A DNA stretch of 64,000 nucleotides, from NCBI RefSeq assembly GCF_014204895.1, contig NZ_JACHMF010000001.1, forward strand, positions 6,200,001-6,264,000. The letters run 5' to 3'. Of the stretch, positions 30,654-62,898 are shown one piece after another. The stretch's first letter is position 1, and each line of letters opens with the position of its first letter. The stretch comes from Paractinoplanes abujensis. Lineage in GTDB: Bacteria; Actinomycetota; Actinomycetes; Mycobacteriales; Micromonosporaceae. The notes under the pieces are model-generated. The model was given only the letters and a program-made list of their open reading frames with translations, ran no database searches and was not told the origin of the DNA. The translations under genes and the position numbers were made by a program.

Positions 30654-32006
30654 TCACGCGTCACCGTCGATCAGAGCGGTCATGCGGCGGTGCTCGTCCG
30701 CCATGAGCGCCAGGATGAGGTGGCGCTGGGTGGCCGGCATCTCCGGGTTGTCGAGCAGCTGATCGAGCTGGGCGCCCATGTCGACCAGGCTCGGGCGCAA
30801 CTCGGCCACGGCCGGGGAGATGGCGGCAAATGCCGGGGCCGGCGAGCCGGTGGGCACGGCTTCGGGCGCGGCGTGCGCTGGAGCTGCAGTGGATGCGCCG
30901 GGCACCAGGACTGTCGCCGGGTCGGCAGGCGCCGGGCCTGTCGCGGGACCGGTTGAGGCCGAGGCTGCTGGGGGATCGGCGGGTCCGAGGGCGGCAGCGG
31001 AGCCGGTGGGCGCCGGCGCTCCTGCGGGATCGGTGGGCGCCGGGGCTGCTGCGGGATCGGTGGGCGCCGGGGCTGTCGCGGAGCCGGTGGACGCCGAGGC
31101 CGGCGCAAAGTCGGACCCTGGGGCTGTCGCGGAGCCGGTGGACGCCGGGGTCGCAGCGGTGTCAGCAGGCGCCGGGGCTGTCGCGGAGTCGTGGCGTGCT
31201 GGGGCCGTGCCGGGGGTGCTCTGCGCGGGCCGGGTGGCCGACTCGTCGCCGGGGTGAGTGGGCGACTCATCGGACGCGTGCCGGGGCTTGAGCGCGCGGA
31301 TCTCGACCGTGGGGGCCGCGGCGGCTTCGGACGTGGTGGTCGAATCGGTTCCAGCGAAGGAGGCGGCGGCGGGGGTGGCGGGAGATGAGGAACGCACCCG
31401 AGAAAGAAGATCGTTCAGAGCGTCAGTCAGCTCAGCCACCTCACGGGGGCTCTTCACCTCGGGCAACCGCTGCCCCGGGTCGGCCGGGTCCAGCTCCCGG
31501 GCGGCCCCCAGCAACCGCTGGAACGGCCGCAACACCAGCCCGGTAGCGAACCACACCCCGGCCGCGCTCAGGACGGCGGCGAGCAGTACCAGCAGATCCA
31601 CGACCAGCACGTTATCGGTGTGCTGCTCGGACAGGTCGTCCAGGCTCATCAGAATCTGGAGTTGCCCCCCGGTGGGCAGGGTCTGCGCGAGGGACCGCCA
31701 TTCGTCGTCTCCGGAGCTCACCGTCGAGTAGCCGTCTTTCGCCGGCATCGGGAATCCGGCGGACGACCCGACTTGTTTGAGCATTTCTCCGCCTTGGATG
31801 AGGCGGATCGCGAAGCTGCCGTCGGTGGGCAGGGACCCGTTTTTCTGCGCGGCGGCGCGTACCTGTTCGGCGCGGGCGGCGAGGACGCGGTCGAGGTCGT
31901 CGCGGTCGCGATGGTCGATCCGTACGACGATGAGCAGCCCGGCCAGCGCGACCACGAGCGCGACAAGTGCGGTGACGGTCAGCGTCAGCTGGGTGCGAAG
32001 CCTCAT
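30654..32006 (-). CDS. Degenerate sensor histidine kinase: sensor, HAMP and HisKA-like end, no catalytic domain
   Basis: 450 residues. Two membrane helices (about 8-28 and 133-158) flank an extracytoplasmic sensor region, followed by a HAMP-like segment ([20 protein letters not shown]...). A ~180-residue Pro/Ala/Thr/Ser-rich stretch then occupies the middle. The last ~54 residues ([39 protein letters not shown]) look like the two HisKA helices, but the expected SHELRTPL is AELRPSL with no phospho-acceptor His. The protein stops where the second helix should lead to the HATPase domain. No response regulator is adjacent. Either a dead kinase or a repurposed membrane protein. Confidence 0.72.
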
Positions 32007-49091: not shown

Positions 49092-50507
49092 TCAAACTTG
49101 CCGGAAATCGATGCCCAGCAGTGAGGCCGCCGCCTTGTAGTCGGCCGCGCGGTGCCCGAGCGAGAGCGACCAGTGGTGACCGACCCCCGAAGCGCTCCAG
49201 TCGTCGACCCACTCGCCGGGGTCGCGGCCGAAGTCGACCCGGCTCGTGGTGTTGCCGATGGCCAGCAGCGGGCCGTCGACCACGGTGCCCTCGCCCGCGA
49301 TGAACGACAGCGAGCCGTCCCGGTCCTGGCCCAGCCCGAGCAGGGTGACCGGCCCCGGCCGTACGTCGAACTCGACCGAGACACCCCAGCCGCGCTTGCC
49401 GTGATAGACGCCGAGACCTCGCAGCAGCGGCTGTTTCGCGCTGACGGCCAGGTGAGCCGGGCCGTCGTGGCCCATCTCGACCACGTTGTCCTCGAAGTTC
49501 AAAGCCTGGATCTCGCAGAAGGATCCGCCCGCCCCGGCCACCTGAGTGGCCAGCTGGGCCACGGTCGTGCGCAGCTCGTACTCGCCGGTGGCCGGGATGC
49601 CCCGCGCGGTCAGCAGCGACGCGCCCAGGATCATGCCCGCGCCCAGCCGTTCGTGCTGCTCGCCGGCCAGCCCGCGGTGGTAGTAGGCCAGGCTGTCCAG
49701 GTCGAAGTCGTCGGCCAGCCGGTCCAGCCCGACCGAGACACGGGCGCCCCAGGCGAAGTCGTCCTCGTTGACCGAGTCGTCCAGCACGAAGATCTTGCGG
49801 GCCAGGTCCATCCGCTCGGCCACCTCGTCGTCGCTGACGGCGAGGGTGCGTTCGCGCAGGTCGTCGAACTCGAGCACCTCGACGTGGGAGCCGAACGTGG
49901 TGGGCAGCAGGGTCAGGTCGGTCGAGACGTCGAGCATGCCCGGATAGAGGTGACCCATCAGGCCGTGCCGGGCCTCGCGCAACGCCGCCCGTACGCGGGC
50001 GGCGGTGATCCACTGCGAGATGCGGGCCCAGGCCGACTCCTGCCGCAGCCAGCCGGTGACCGAGCGGAACGGGATGCCGGCCCGGCGGAACAGGTTGCCC
50101 ACCTCGGGCACCGGGCACTGCCCGCAGTAGGCCAGCCACGAGCCGGTGTCGAAGGAGGCGTGGTCCATCTTCTCGGTCGGCTGCAGGTCGATGACCAGCA
50201 CCGGGCTGCCGGCCCGCTGGGCGATCGGCAGCACCATCGACGAGGTGAGATAGGTGGTCAGGAACAGCACGATCAAGTCGCAGTCGGCCCGGCGCAGCTG
50301 CTCGGCGGCGGCCGTGCCCTCCTGGGCGTCCGAGATGAACCCGACGTCGGTGACCTCGGCGTCCATCTCCTGGAAACGCTCGGAGACGTAGCGGGCGGAC
50401 TCCTGCAGCTGGGGCAGCAGGTGCGGGAACTGGGGCCAGTACGTGCCGAGGCCACCGGCCACCAGCCCGATACGGATCTTCCGGCGGGGTTTCGGGGTAA
50501 GGATCAT
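49092..50507 (-). CDS. L-arabinose/L-fucose isomerase family protein
   Basis: 471 residues from ATG 50507, with AGGAGG 4 nt upstream and an ATGA overlap with the lutC stop. Motifs of the FucI/AraA fold: RIGLVAGGLGTYWPQFPHL, IVLFLTTYLTSSMVLPIAQR, VLVIDLQPTEKMDHASFDTG, GSFCEIQALNFEDNVVEMGH, HWSLSLGHRAADYKAAA. Last gene of the operon after an aldolase, kinase and LutABC. It probably isomerises the 6-deoxyhexose (L-rhamnose or L-fucose) at the start of the route. No canonical L-rhamnose isomerase is in this window. Family confident, substrate inferred. Confidence 0.85.
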   Translation of the reverse strand: MILTPKPRRKIRIGLVAGGLGTYWPQFPHLLPQLQESARYVSERFQEMDAEVTDVGFISDAQEGTAAAEQLRRADCDLIVLFLTTYLTSSMVLPIAQRAGSPVLVIDLQPTEKMDHASFDTGSWLAYCGQCPVPEVGNLFRRAGIPFRSVTGWLRQESAWARISQWITAARVRAALREARHGLMGHLYPGMLDVSTDLTLLPTTFGSHVEVLEFDDLRERTLAVSDDEVAERMDLARKIFVLDDSVNEDDFAWGARVSVGLDRLADDFDLDSLAYYHRGLAGEQHERLGAGMILGASLLTARGIPATGEYELRTTVAQLATQVAGAGGSFCEIQALNFEDNVVEMGHDGPAHLAVSAKQPLLRGLGVYHGKRGWGVSVEFDVRPGPVTLLGLGQDRDGSLSFIAGEGTVVDGPLLAIGNTTSRVDFGRDPGEWVDDWSASGVGHHWSLSLGHRAADYKAAASLLGIDFRQV

Positions 50508-51097
50508 GCTGCCTCCTGGACGAGGACGATGTGGAGATGGCGGGGGCCGTGCACCCCCTCGACGCGGTTGAGCTCGATGTCGCTGGTCGCCGACGGGCCG
50601 CTGATCCAGGTCAGCGGGCGGCCGGGGGTCAGGCGGGCCACGGCCTCGGGCACGCTCGCCACCACCTGATCGGCGCGGAGCACGCAGATGTGCAGGTCGG
50701 GCAGGAGGGAGAGGATGCGGCGGCCCTGATCCTCTCCGGCGTCCAGCACGACGGTGCCGGTCTCGACCACCGCCACCGCGGCCGCCGTGACCACGCCGTC
50801 GGCGGCGGCGATCTGATCCTGACTCAGGCCGTCGTCCCGGATGAATCGGACCGCGAGCCATTCGTCGGGCACTCCGGGCGGCACGACGACCTGGCCGTCA
50901 CCGACGATCTCGCGGATCGTGCCGGAAATATCGGCCGTGCGGTGGACGACGGCCTGGTAATCGACCAAGCGCTCGACCAGCAAGTCAAGATCGACGGGGG
51001 CCTCGCCGCGACGGTAGTCCCGCGGCACCTCCGGCTCGGACGGGTTCTCGCCGAGCGCCTCCCGGATCCGGCGCAGAATCAGGTTCTTGCTGCTCAT
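50504..51097 (-). CDS. lutC: LutC/YkgG-type lactate-utilisation protein (LUD domain)
   Basis: 197 residues from ATG 51097 (MSSKNLILRRIREALGENPS); GTG 51106 is in frame. LUD domain: VTAAAVAVVETGTVVLDAGE, LSLLPDLHICVLRADQVVAS, TWISGPSATSDIELNRVEGV. One of three components (LutA, LutB, LutC) converting L-lactate to pyruvate. It is reached from lutB through a 32-bp repeat holding three ATGA-coupled 11-codon frames, an unusual leader. Its stop overlaps the isomerase ATG. Confidence 0.9.
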   Translation of the reverse strand: MSSKNLILRRIREALGENPSEPEVPRDYRRGEAPVDLDLLVERLVDYQAVVHRTADISGTIREIVGDGQVVVPPGVPDEWLAVRFIRDDGLSQDQIAAADGVVTAAAVAVVETGTVVLDAGEDQGRRILSLLPDLHICVLRADQVVASVPEAVARLTPGRPLTWISGPSATSDIELNRVEGVHGPRHLHIVLVQEAA

Positions 51098-51198
51098 CGT
51101 CCCCACCGCCGCTCGCCGCCGCTGCTCATCGTCCCCACCGCCGCTCGCCGCCGCTGCTCATCGTCCCCACCGCTGCCCGCCGCCGCTGCTCATCGTCC
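51091..51198 (-). repeat. 32-bp tandem repeat duplicating the lutC start region
   Basis: Four near-identical start segments at a 32-bp period. Minus-strand ATGs lie at 51193, 51161, 51129 and 51097, each preceded by GTGGGGACG or a close variant (the copy at 51193 by the lutB end) and followed by AGCAGC. The last is the real lutC start. Because 32 is not divisible by 3, each copy is an 11-codon frame (MSSGG..RWGR) whose TGA overlaps the next ATG. The first ATG overlaps the lutB stop. Confidence 0.8.
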
Positions 51199-52599
51199 TC
51201 GCCACCAGTCCCGGAACGTCTCGGCCGGCGGTTCCGGCAGATCACGGCTGGCCGCCCACCCGTTCAGTGGCGGTGGCAACCCCCGCCCGCGCCGGCCGAG
51301 CAGTTTGGCCGCCTTGGCCGCCCGCTGCGCCCGCTCGTAGAGCTTGGGGTGGTCCATCGTGTACGCCGCCGCGGCCATCGCCGTCTTCTCCGAGCGCGGA
51401 TGCGGGGCCTGGTTACGCAGGTGCACGAGGATGGACGGGATGTCGATCTTGACCGGGCACGCATCGAAGCAGGCGCCGCACAGCGACGACGCGTACGGCA
51501 GGGACGCGTTGTCCTCGACGCCGGTGAGCTGGGGCGACAGCACCGCGCCGATGGGGCCGGGATAGACCGAGCCGTACGCGTGCCCGCCCGTCCGCTCGTA
51601 CACCGGGCACACGTTGAGGCAGGCCGAGCAGCGGATGCAGTGCAGCGCGGACCGTCCCACCTCGTCGGCCAGCACCGCCGTACGCCCGTTGTCCAGCAGC
51701 ACCAGGTGGAAGTTCTGCGGCCCGTCGCCCGGCGTCACCCCGGTCCACATCGACGTGTACGGGTTCATCCGCTCGCCGGTCGACGCGCGCGGCAGCAACT
51801 GCAGGAACACCTCGAGGTCCTGCCAGGCCGGGACGACCTTCTCGATGCCCATCACGGTGATCAACGTGTCGGGCAGGGTCAGGCACATCCGGCCGTTGCC
51901 CTCGCTCTCGACCACCGCCAGCGTGCCGGTCTCGGCGACGCCGAAGTTCGCGCCGGACACGGCCACCTTGGTCGACAGGAACGTCTCGCGCAGGTAGCGC
52001 CGCGCCGCCCCGGCCAGCTCGGGCGGATCGTCGGTCAGCGCCGGGTCGACCCCGGGCATCTCGCGCAGGAAGATCTCGCGGATCTCGGAGCGGTTGCGGT
52101 GGATCGCCGGCACCAGGATGTGCGACGGCTTGTCGTGCCCGAGCTGCACGATGAGTTCGGCCAGGTCGGTCTCGACCGGCGTGATCCCGGCGCCCTCCAG
52201 GGCCTCGTTGAGCCCGATCTCCTGAGTGGCCATCGACTTGACCTTGATGACCCGTTTCTCGCCCGTCGCCGCGACCAGCTCGGTGACGATCCGGTTGGCC
52301 TCCTCGGCGTCGGCCGCCCAGTGCACCACCCCGCCCGCGGCCGTCACGCGCTCCTCGAGCTGTTCGAGCAGCCGGGGCAGATTCGCCATCGTGTACGCCT
52401 TGAGGGCCGAACCCGCCGAGCGCAGTTCCTGCCAGTCCGGCAGTTCGGCGATCACCCGGCCCGACTTGCCGCGGATCGTGGTGGTGGCGTGCTGCAGGTT
52501 GCGCCGCAGCTGCGGGTCGGCCAACGCGACCTTGGCCGCCGCGGGGAAGGGCCGGTCGCCGCGCAGATGCCCCACGCCTTTGGGTGCGTGCGTGCTCAT
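51190..52599 (-). CDS. lutB: LutB iron-sulfur lactate-utilisation protein
   Basis: 469 residues from ATG 52599, in ATGA overlap with the lutA stop. LUD domain in the N-terminal half (MSTHAPKGVGHLRG..., IKVKSMATQEIGLNEALEGA). C-terminal ferredoxin-like part with CIRCSACLNVCPVY and CGACFDACPV, two 4Fe-4S sites. Electron-carrying subunit of the L-lactate oxidation system. Ends in an ATGA with the first repeat copy. Confidence 0.95.
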   Translation of the reverse strand: MSTHAPKGVGHLRGDRPFPAAAKVALADPQLRRNLQHATTTIRGKSGRVIAELPDWQELRSAGSALKAYTMANLPRLLEQLEERVTAAGGVVHWAADAEEANRIVTELVAATGEKRVIKVKSMATQEIGLNEALEGAGITPVETDLAELIVQLGHDKPSHILVPAIHRNRSEIREIFLREMPGVDPALTDDPPELAGAARRYLRETFLSTKVAVSGANFGVAETGTLAVVESEGNGRMCLTLPDTLITVMGIEKVVPAWQDLEVFLQLLPRASTGERMNPYTSMWTGVTPGDGPQNFHLVLLDNGRTAVLADEVGRSALHCIRCSACLNVCPVYERTGGHAYGSVYPGPIGAVLSPQLTGVEDNASLPYASSLCGACFDACPVKIDIPSILVHLRNQAPHPRSEKTAMAAAAYTMDHPKLYERAQRAAKAAKLLGRRGRGLPPPLNGWAASRDLPEPPAETFRDWWRGR

Positions 52600-53333
52600 G
52601 CCGTCGCCTCCGTACTCGCCAGGATCTCCGCCAGGTGGACCGTTCGCACGCCCGTACGCAGCCGGGACAGTCCGCCACCGATGTGCATGAGGCAGGACGC
52701 GTCGCCCGCCGTGCAGACGTCGGCGCCGGTGTCGAGCACGTGCCGCATCTTGTCGGCCAGCATCGCCGTCGACGTGTCGGCGTTCTTGACCGCGAACGTG
52801 CCGCCGAACCCGCAGCACTGCTCGGCCTGCGGCAACTCGACCAGGTCGAGCCCGCGCACCTGGCGCAGCAGCCGCAGCGGGCGGTCGCCGACCCGCAGCA
52901 CGCGCAGCGAGTGACACGTCGGGTGATAGGTGACCCGGTGCGGGTAGTAGGCGCCCACGTCTTCGATCTTGAGCACGTCGATGAGCAGCTCGGACAGCTC
53001 GTACGTGCGCTCGGCGACGGCCTCCGCGCGCGCGGCCAGCCCTTCCTGCCCCGCCTGTCGCGCGACCGTCGCGTGCTGGTGCCGGATCGAGCCCACGCAA
53101 CTGCCCGAGGGGGCCACCACCACGTCGCACGGCTCGAACGTGCGCACATATCGGCGTACGAGGGGAAGGGCTTCTTTTTGATAGCCCGTGTTGACGTGCA
53201 TCTGGCCGCAGCAGGTCTGCTCGGGCGGGAAGACGACCTCGTGGCCGAGCCGCTCGAGCAACTGAACTGTCGCCTTGGCCGCCGCGGGGAACATCGTGTC
53301 GGCCAGACAGGTCGCGAACAACGCGATACGCAC
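52596..53333 (-). CDS. lutA: LutA cysteine-rich (CCG) lactate-utilisation protein
   Basis: 245 residues, GTG 53333. Two CCG domains, with TCCGQMHVNTG and QCCGFGGTFAVK. Part of LutABC, taking L-lactate to pyruvate. 4 nt after the kinase stop; ATGA-coupled to lutB. Confidence 0.93.
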   Translation of the reverse strand: MRIALFATCLADTMFPAAAKATVQLLERLGHEVVFPPEQTCCGQMHVNTGYQKEALPLVRRYVRTFEPCDVVVAPSGSCVGSIRHQHATVARQAGQEGLAARAEAVAERTYELSELLIDVLKIEDVGAYYPHRVTYHPTCHSLRVLRVGDRPLRLLRQVRGLDLVELPQAEQCCGFGGTFAVKNADTSTAMLADKMRHVLDTGADVCTAGDASCLMHIGGGLSRLRTGVRTVHLAEILASTEATA

Positions 53334-61209: not shown

Positions 61210-62898
61210 GTGGCGGAGGCAAACGCCCGGCCCCAGAACGACCCCGCGCGCTCCCCGCAGCCCGCGCCCCAGAACGACCCCGCGCGCCCCCAGCAGCCCG
61301 CGCCCCAAAATGAATCCGCGCGCTCCCAGGAGCCAGCGCCCCAAAACGATCTCGCGCGCACCCCGCAGCCCGCGCCCCAGAACGACCCCGCGCGCCCCCA
61401 GCAGCCCGCGCGACTCGAGGTTCAGAACGTCACCAAGTCCTTCGGCGCGGTCGCCGCCGTGCAAGGGGTCACCTTCCCCCTCCACCCCGGCGAGGCCCAT
61501 GCGCTGGTCGGTGAGAACGGGGCCGGCAAGTCCACCATCGTGAAGATGCTGGCCGGCGTCCACCGTCCGGACACCGGCACGCTGCGGGTCGACGGCGTCG
61601 ACGTGGATTTTGCCGGCCCCGCCGACGCCAAGGCGGCCGGCATCGCCGTCATCTATCAGGAGCCGACCCTCTTCCCCGATCTGTCAGTGGCCGAGAACAT
61701 CGCGATGGGCAACCAGCCGCTGACCAAGCTGCGGCAGATCGATCGCAAGGAGATGCACGCCAACGCCGAGCGGCTGTTCCGCCGGCTGGGTGTTCCGCTC
61801 GACCCGACGCGTCCGGCCCGTGGCTTGTCGATCGCCGATCAGCAGCTGGTCGAGATCGCGAAGGCGCTGTCGTCCGAGGCCCGGGTGCTGATCATGGATG
61901 AGCCGACCGCCGCGCTGTCCGCCGTCGAGGTGGAGCGGCTCTTCGCGGTGGTGCGGTCGCTGCGGGACGAGGGCGCCGCGATCATGTTCATCTCGCACCG
62001 GTTCGAGGAGATCACTGCCCTGTGCGAGCGGGTCACGATCATGCGGGACGGCAAGCACGTCGCCACCGAGCTGGTCGCCGACCTCAGCGTCGACGACATG
62101 ATCCGGCGCATGGTCGGGCGTGACCTGAGCGCGCTTTTCCCCAAGCAGGACGTCGAGCCGGGCGAGGTCGTGCTCGAGGTCGAGGGCCTGTCCCGCGAGG
62201 GCGTTTTCCGAGAGATCTCCTTTTCCGTACGGGCGGGAGAGATCGTCGCCTTGGCCGGGCTCGTGGGCGCGGGCCGTTCCGAGGTCATGCAGGCCGTGTT
62301 CGGCGTGGACCCGTACGACAGCGGGGTTGTCAAGGTGCACGGCAGGCGTCTCAGGAAGGGGGATCCGCGCGCCGCGATGGCCGCCGGGATGGCTCTTGTG
62401 CCCGAGGATCGCCGTCAGCAGGGCCTGGTGATGGACCTGTCGATCGAACGCAACGTGACCTTGCCGCGCGCCCGCAAGCTGGCCCGGCTGGGTCTGCTGT
62501 TCGGCGGCAGCGAGCGCGCGGCCGCCGAGACCTGGACCCGCAAGTTGCAGACCAAGCTGGGCCGGCTCTCCGACGCCGTGGGCACGCTCTCGGGCGGCAA
62601 CCAGCAGAAGGTCGTGCTGGCCAAGTGGCTGGCCACCGGGCCCAAGCTGCTGATCGTCGACGAGCCCACGCGCGGCATCGACGTCGGCACCAAGGCCGAG
62701 GTGCACCGGCTGATGTCGTCGCTCGCGGCGGACGGCCTGGCGGTCGTCATGGTCTCGTCGGAGCTGCCCGAGGTCCTGGGCATGGCCGATCGGGTCGTGG
62801 TGCTGCGCGAGGGCCGCGTCGCCGCCCAGCTCACCCGGGCTGAGGCAACCGAGGAGTCCGTGATGTACGCGGCCATGGGACAGGAGGTCGCGGCATGA
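61210..62898 (+). CDS. Sugar ABC transporter ATP-binding protein (RhaT/RbsA-like) with repeated N-terminal extension
   Basis: 562 residues from GTG 61210 (GGAGGTG 4-5 nt upstream). Residues 9-68 are five 12-residue repeats of the QNDPARxPQPAP type, absent from the family as I know it. The ABC part starts at ~70: Walker [10 protein letters not shown], then the first-domain [20 protein letters not shown] and DEPTAALS. The second ABC domain has a degenerate Walker A (GLVGAGRSE), [15 protein letters not shown] and [15 protein letters not shown]. As in the RbsA/MglA/XylG group, two cassettes on one chain. The binding protein is not in the window. Confidence 0.92.
61234..61413 (+). repeat. Five 36-bp tandem repeats in the ATPase N-terminus
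   Basis: Encode units of the pattern [14 protein letters not shown], five copies in frame (residues 9-68). Internal differences are mostly substitutions. Proline-rich and probably disordered. Confidence 0.85.

Follow-up and report, generated by a model that had tools for sequence, protein, structure and literature searches.

The lutB–lutC junction of Paractinoplanes abujensis

The junction examined here lies between the lactate-use genes lutB and lutC in a 64,000-nucleotide stretch of DNA from the soil actinobacterium Paractinoplanes abujensis (assembly GCF_014204895.1, contig NZ_JACHMF010000001.1, positions 6,200,001 to 6,264,000; hereafter the window), and it is occupied by a short tandem repeat that is itself a chain of open reading frames (ORFs). 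The lutB stop codon overlaps an ATG at 51193, from which three ORFs of 11 codons lead to the lutC start. All four stop/start joins on this path are ATGA, and the −4 overlap that marks coupled gene pairs is present at every step (n = 4 joins). Tandem Repeats Finder reported a period of 32 with 97% matches; units 2 and 3 are identical, and unit 1 departs from their sequence by two substitutions in 32 positions, each of which changes an amino acid. In all, the array adds 96 bp between the two genes. These readings reproduce exactly what the first-pass annotation of this DNA had described, namely a repeated 32-bp unit, 11 codons in each copy, and a TGA overlapping the next ATG all the way from the lutB stop to the lutC start. 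The flanking genes are joined in the same manner, the lutA stop overlapping the lutB ATG (52599) and the lutC stop overlapping the ATG of the next ORF (50507), each as ATGA. Promoters and terminators were sought at 50950–51350 by a simple scan, with a sigma-70-type promoter model that leaves other promoter types uncovered, and none was found.

The chain follows from the length of the unit. A tandemly repeated ATGA join yields a series of mini-ORFs when its period is 2 mod 3, as 32 is, and the frame opened by each ATG then meets the TGA of the following copy. One in three of the possible duplication lengths across an ATGA join forms such a chain. As the unit is 2 mod 3, gain or loss of whole units therefore never breaks it.

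A chain of short ORFs linked by NTGA is by itself not rare. The window holds nine runs with at least three links on its two strands, a count that includes lutB–lutC and in which some runs have links in common. We also examined 1.264 Mb of the genome (60 sampled stretches plus the window), relying on a crude gene-calling script based on codon composition. Among 571 same-strand neighboring pairs, 125 had a direct NTGA overlap, and 22 were connected by a mini-ORF chain of any kind; lutB–lutC was the only pair with three links and also the only internally repeated one. What sets this chain apart is its repeat structure and its exact fit between the end of one real gene and the start of the next. 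The coordinates of the locus are collected in Table 1.

Table 1. Features of the lut locus in the window, with the support for each assignment
Feature	Position	Strand	Support
Rhamnulokinase-like FGGY kinase, lutA, lutB, lutC, further ORF without Pfam match	window	minus	
lutA (cysteine-rich CCG domains)	52596..53333	minus	PF02754, E 4.2e-36
lutB, LutB/LldF family iron-sulfur protein, 469 codons	51190..52599	minus	TIGR00273, 447.3 bits (cut-off 444.8)
lutB stop codon TGA	51192-51190	minus	
32-bp tandem array, 3.4 copies	51089..51198	minus	Tandem Repeats Finder
Repeat unit 1	51162..51193	minus	
Repeat unit 2	51130..51161	minus	
Repeat unit 3	51098..51129	minus	
Mini-ORF 1, MSSGGGQRWGR, ATGA overlap at both ends	51158..51193	minus	
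Mini-ORF 2, MSSGGERRWGR, ATGA overlap at both ends	51126..51161	minus	
Mini-ORF 3, MSSGGERRWGR, ATGA overlap at both ends	51094..51129	minus	
lutC, LUD domain, 197 codons, ATG at 51097	50504..51097	minus	PF02589, E 3.9e-23

The join in related genomes

We then compared the same join across relatives. We found LutC in 65 of the 67 genus genomes, and the joins of these were read together with those of 80 named loci and 80 other family regions; the latter are the non-genus rows among the matches listed, less the last five. Collapsing these 225 loci by their 120-nt context gave 165 distinct joins, with a few genomes supplying two each. A direct 4-base NTGA overlap into lutC was found in 147 of the 165, a one-base overlap in 1, and a longer overlap in 10; the remaining 7 carry an insert of 47–96 bp that is bridged by a chain into lutC, unbroken in all seven cases. 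None of the 165 distinct joins leaves an untranslated gap before lutC. The lutB stop codon forms part of an NTGA in 162 of them, and we used the figure of 147 since in some of these the lutC start lies further upstream. Taken together, the comparison supports a conserved coupling of lutB and lutC. It also makes a reinitiation chain feeding lutC, as proposed earlier, the natural reading of the sequence, all seven inserts of at least 47 bp being coupled chains.

Within the genus, 60 of 65 joins lack an insert of at least 47 bp between stop and start, including that of the closest relative by LutC, Paractinoplanes lichenicola (89% identical). The other 64 genus genomes with lutC all lack the 32-bp array. 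This distribution bears on the idea that the 11-residue peptides are functional in themselves. Their reading frames are open and come with Shine–Dalgarno (SD)-like sequences; they are, however, missing from all those other joins, both differences between copies alter an amino acid, and the mini-ORFs at other joins are unrelated to them. We consider a function of the peptides hardly credible.

The seven inserts are of different construction. Next to the 3 × 32 bp of P. abujensis, genome G002 carries 2 × 29 bp, the second link ending in TGATGA; G016 carries a 77-bp unit resembling a mycobacterial interspersed repetitive unit (MIRU); G021 has 47 bp, with a junction identical to that of Actinoplanes flavus; and G039 has 35 + 29 bp with GTGA, its junction being identical to that of Actinoplanes palleronii. 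Outside the genus, Micromonospora craterilacus (L096) carries a 77-bp insert built like the G016 unit, and the 56 bp in G107 (L228) duplicate, with some divergence, the tail of lutB and the head of lutC. All links in these inserts (32 × 3, 29 + 29, 77, 77, 47, 35 + 29, and 56 bp) are 2 mod 3. Under random lengths, the probability that the six link types other than 77 bp would all obey this rule is about 0.0014, or 0.0041 when the five joins that hold them are counted instead; such chance values lend the length rule what appears to be modest weight.

The distance to the LutC motif, measurable in 161 of the 165 joins, provided a second view. At least 12 extra bases were present in 11 measured joins: the seven chains and four others (L142, L220, L224, and L227), in which 12–27 extra bases run straight into LutC as an in-frame N-terminal extension. 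Of the four joins in which this distance could not be measured, L215 has 12 extra bases in frame, as read by eye, and three are free of inserts. None of the 11 leaves lutC uncoupled (p of about 0.012 if one-third of insert lengths broke coupling), a weak test in that the 11 include four short in-frame extensions of LutC from distant rows. In a quick LutB tree, the chain-bearing joins were scattered, requiring seven changes, three of them forced by well-supported branches.

The lutB/lutC join can be regarded as a natural experiment in which the insertions of different lineages follow one length rule. A common rule across lineages therefore argues for selection on NTGA coupling and for tolerance of short reinitiation relays. 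The joins also offer a ready series of 0, 1, 2, or 3 links for measuring the loss of expression at each reinitiation step.

Length variation is seen on the lutB side as well. In 7 of the 65 genus genomes (L025, L030, L035, L036, L038, L053, and L059), the LutB C terminus runs 10 to 80 codons beyond its conserved FRxWW motif; these are upstream in-frame extensions and were not counted among the inserts.

Proposed origin of the array and relay into lutC

We propose that the array arose by local tandem expansion of the join, that it is near-neutral rather than a regulator, and that it has been tolerated because termination–reinitiation into lutC is preserved; we give this reading a probability of roughly 0.7. 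Ancestrally, lutB and lutC would have met in a simple 4-base ATGA overlap, and ribosomes ending lutB would have restarted there on lutC. A 32-bp stretch containing the join would then have become tandemly repeated in this lineage, and the ribosome would be relayed from lutB through mini-ORFs 1, 2, and 3 to lutC, with coupling surviving a 96-bp insertion. Repeat expansion would in this way have been filtered by selection for LutC staying coupled to LutB, and we infer that the effect of the array on the LutC level is small.

The unit itself was probably derived from the join. It has the join core GGACGATGAGCAGC in common with the end of lutB, and from the ATG on it shares 9 bases with lutC; the remainder is without evident source. 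The 56-bp insert of L228 is a direct example of a junction duplication giving a chain.

Termination–reinitiation along the mini-ORFs is the most likely mechanism of such a relay, judging from published work on coupled pairs. For six E. coli and Haloferax pairs, reinitiation is reported to be nearly lost at gaps of ~20 nt (Huber et al. 2023, PMC10666635); in the same study, two E. coli pairs needed no more of the upstream gene than its last 15 nt, and one of these two bridges a 15-nt gap as well. On these findings an untranslated gap of 96 bp would be expected to uncouple lutC, and the chain in the array would prevent this. In PMC6728339 (Huber et al. 2019), four Haloferax pairs are described as strictly coupled, and the tested E. 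coli pairs as coupled with one exception, one of them only to about 60%. The −4 overlapping gene pairs of these two studies resemble the present case in the ATGA overlap between neighboring operon genes, whereas here the join occurs four times in succession and three very short ORFs separate the genes.

An alternative is that lutC starts de novo, using the SD-like GGTGGGG that the last unit supplies, and that the mini-ORFs are incidental. Every start in the chain retains predicted SD-like complementarity (−8.7, −7.2, −11.8, and −11.8 kcal/mol), in line with the relay, and the last value, that of lutC, is stronger than the median of the genus joins (−8.55 kcal/mol; n = 64, this join included). 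De novo starts do exist at overlapping E. coli pairs (PMC6728339). Against such a start stand the joins of the relatives, in which no gap precedes lutC and, by the weak test described above, extra bases never uncouple it. We regard a de novo start as unlikely.

Several points weigh against the proposed expansion and relay. The mod 3 test is based on few events, the two 77-bp inserts belong to a repeat type without free length, and the LutB tree is a quick one. Chance mini-ORF chains occur elsewhere in the window and in the sampled genome. Because an SD-like sequence is present in the last unit, lutC may be able to start without upstream translation; in PMC6728339, one overlapping E. coli pair is uncoupled and another shows nearly 40% independent initiation.

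Copy number of the array

The first-pass annotation had further suggested that changes in repeat number act as a phase-variation-like adjustment of lutC. This part was not supported: slippage by whole units would keep lutC coupled at every copy number. Phase-variable simple-sequence contingency loci combine a tandem repeat, a change of copy number, and an on/off outcome. The array is like them in being a tandem repeat able to change its copy number, but here whole-unit changes would leave the coupling intact, and no on/off outcome follows. Phase variation is rejected on the arithmetic of a 2 mod 3 unit, from which constant coupling is predicted. An array acting as a switch finds no support in the sequence.

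A graded effect is a separate matter. Each added reinitiation step might pass on a fraction of the ribosomes, and the number of units would then tune LutC relative to LutB. Two identical units stand in tandem, so slippage may vary the copy number, and reinitiation below 100% at each step would mean a geometric fall with copy number. This rheostat keeps its coupling at all whole copy numbers, however, and hence is no on/off switch, and the accessibility of the lutC start site, from RNA folding in silico, fell slightly from 0.51 with no unit to 0.42 with one and was then flat up to five units. We think a rheostat improbable. That the slippage-prone array, with lutC never off and a variable number of reinitiation steps, creates heritable graded LutB:LutC ratios seems to us likewise improbable; each species was represented by one genome.

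Comparison with MIRUs

The architecture of the array recalls MIRUs, which PMC12548453 (citing Supply et al. 1997) describes as repeats inserting at start codons, with an internal ORF coupled at a −4 spacing. The tandem units at senX3–regX3 are 77 and 53 bp long (PMC4213456); we note that both lengths are 2 mod 3. We therefore weighed whether the array is itself an inserted mobile repeat of this type. Like a MIRU, it is intercistronic between co-directional operon genes and contains, inside an operon, a small ORF that is bounded by ATGA on either side and joined to the following gene by a −4 overlap; moreover, the MIRU-like unit of G016 and the insert of like build in M. craterilacus sit at the very same join. 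Against this, the unit measures 32 bp rather than 77 or 53 bp, and no dispersed homologous copy was found in the genome. An own-genome search with the array gave 119 candidates, and among the 40 scored there was no dispersed copy of the 32-bp unit, the three other matches (L002–L004, 74–75%) being rejected as array copies on account of their GC-rich low-complexity sequence. Searches with the 77-bp unit led to two places in this genome, neither at lutB–lutC. MIRU membership is thus rejected, as no dispersed copy was found among the scored candidates and the unit size differs, and we judge insertion of a mobile repeat very improbable.

In translation the array would work in the same way as MIRUs, and units of 2 mod 3 are shared with senX3–regX3. 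The array differs in that its unit is 32 bp long, it is local, and no dispersed copy of it was found; duplication of the join itself is the simplest account of its origin. In addition, the senX3–regX3 repeats are said to drive regX3 independently (PMC4213456), whereas the sigma-70-type scan gave no promoter-like site here. A literature search on tandem repeats in translational coupling and reinitiation gave papers that, judging by the listing alone, deal with other subjects, and among the papers searched none paired the whole words "Actinoplanes" and "MIRU".

A dispersed 77-bp family and other repeats

The 77-bp insert of G016 is a member of a dispersed family, with matches in 30 of the 67 genus genomes (E ≤ 0.001, some partial). 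The two matches in the P. abujensis genome lie outside the window (L242 2001–2081 and L243 2001–2081). We read the copies in L230–L251 that aligned over >60 bases. All 27 begin with ATGA, contain an ORF of 26 residues (mostly MSELASES...), and end in an ATGA or GTGA that opens the next ORF; upstream, the frame running into the first TGA stays open over at least 100 codons in 18 copies and is shorter in 9. Head-to-tail pairs of the element, 77 bp apart, occur at five loci.

Of 296 genomes sampled across the class, 13 match the element, the 12 outside this genome only partially. Five partial copies at four loci were read at their 5′ end. Four of them, one each in L324 and L325 and two in L329, share this end structure, at 77 or 80 bp; the fifth, in L323, lacks the end overlap and is a counter-example. 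The units of L324, L325, and L329 (MSELASES.., MSERSER..) lie in other families of the class and include one head-to-tail pair.

Two minor observations concern other repetitive sequence. The region of L002 at about 1440–1640 (own genome ~7793538–7793683) is GC-rich and of low complexity, with long open frames in several frames. The window holds further tandem arrays at 30928–31190 and 61225–61411, with periods of 27/51/81 bp and 36 bp; these periods are multiples of 3, and the arrays are possibly in-frame coding repeats.
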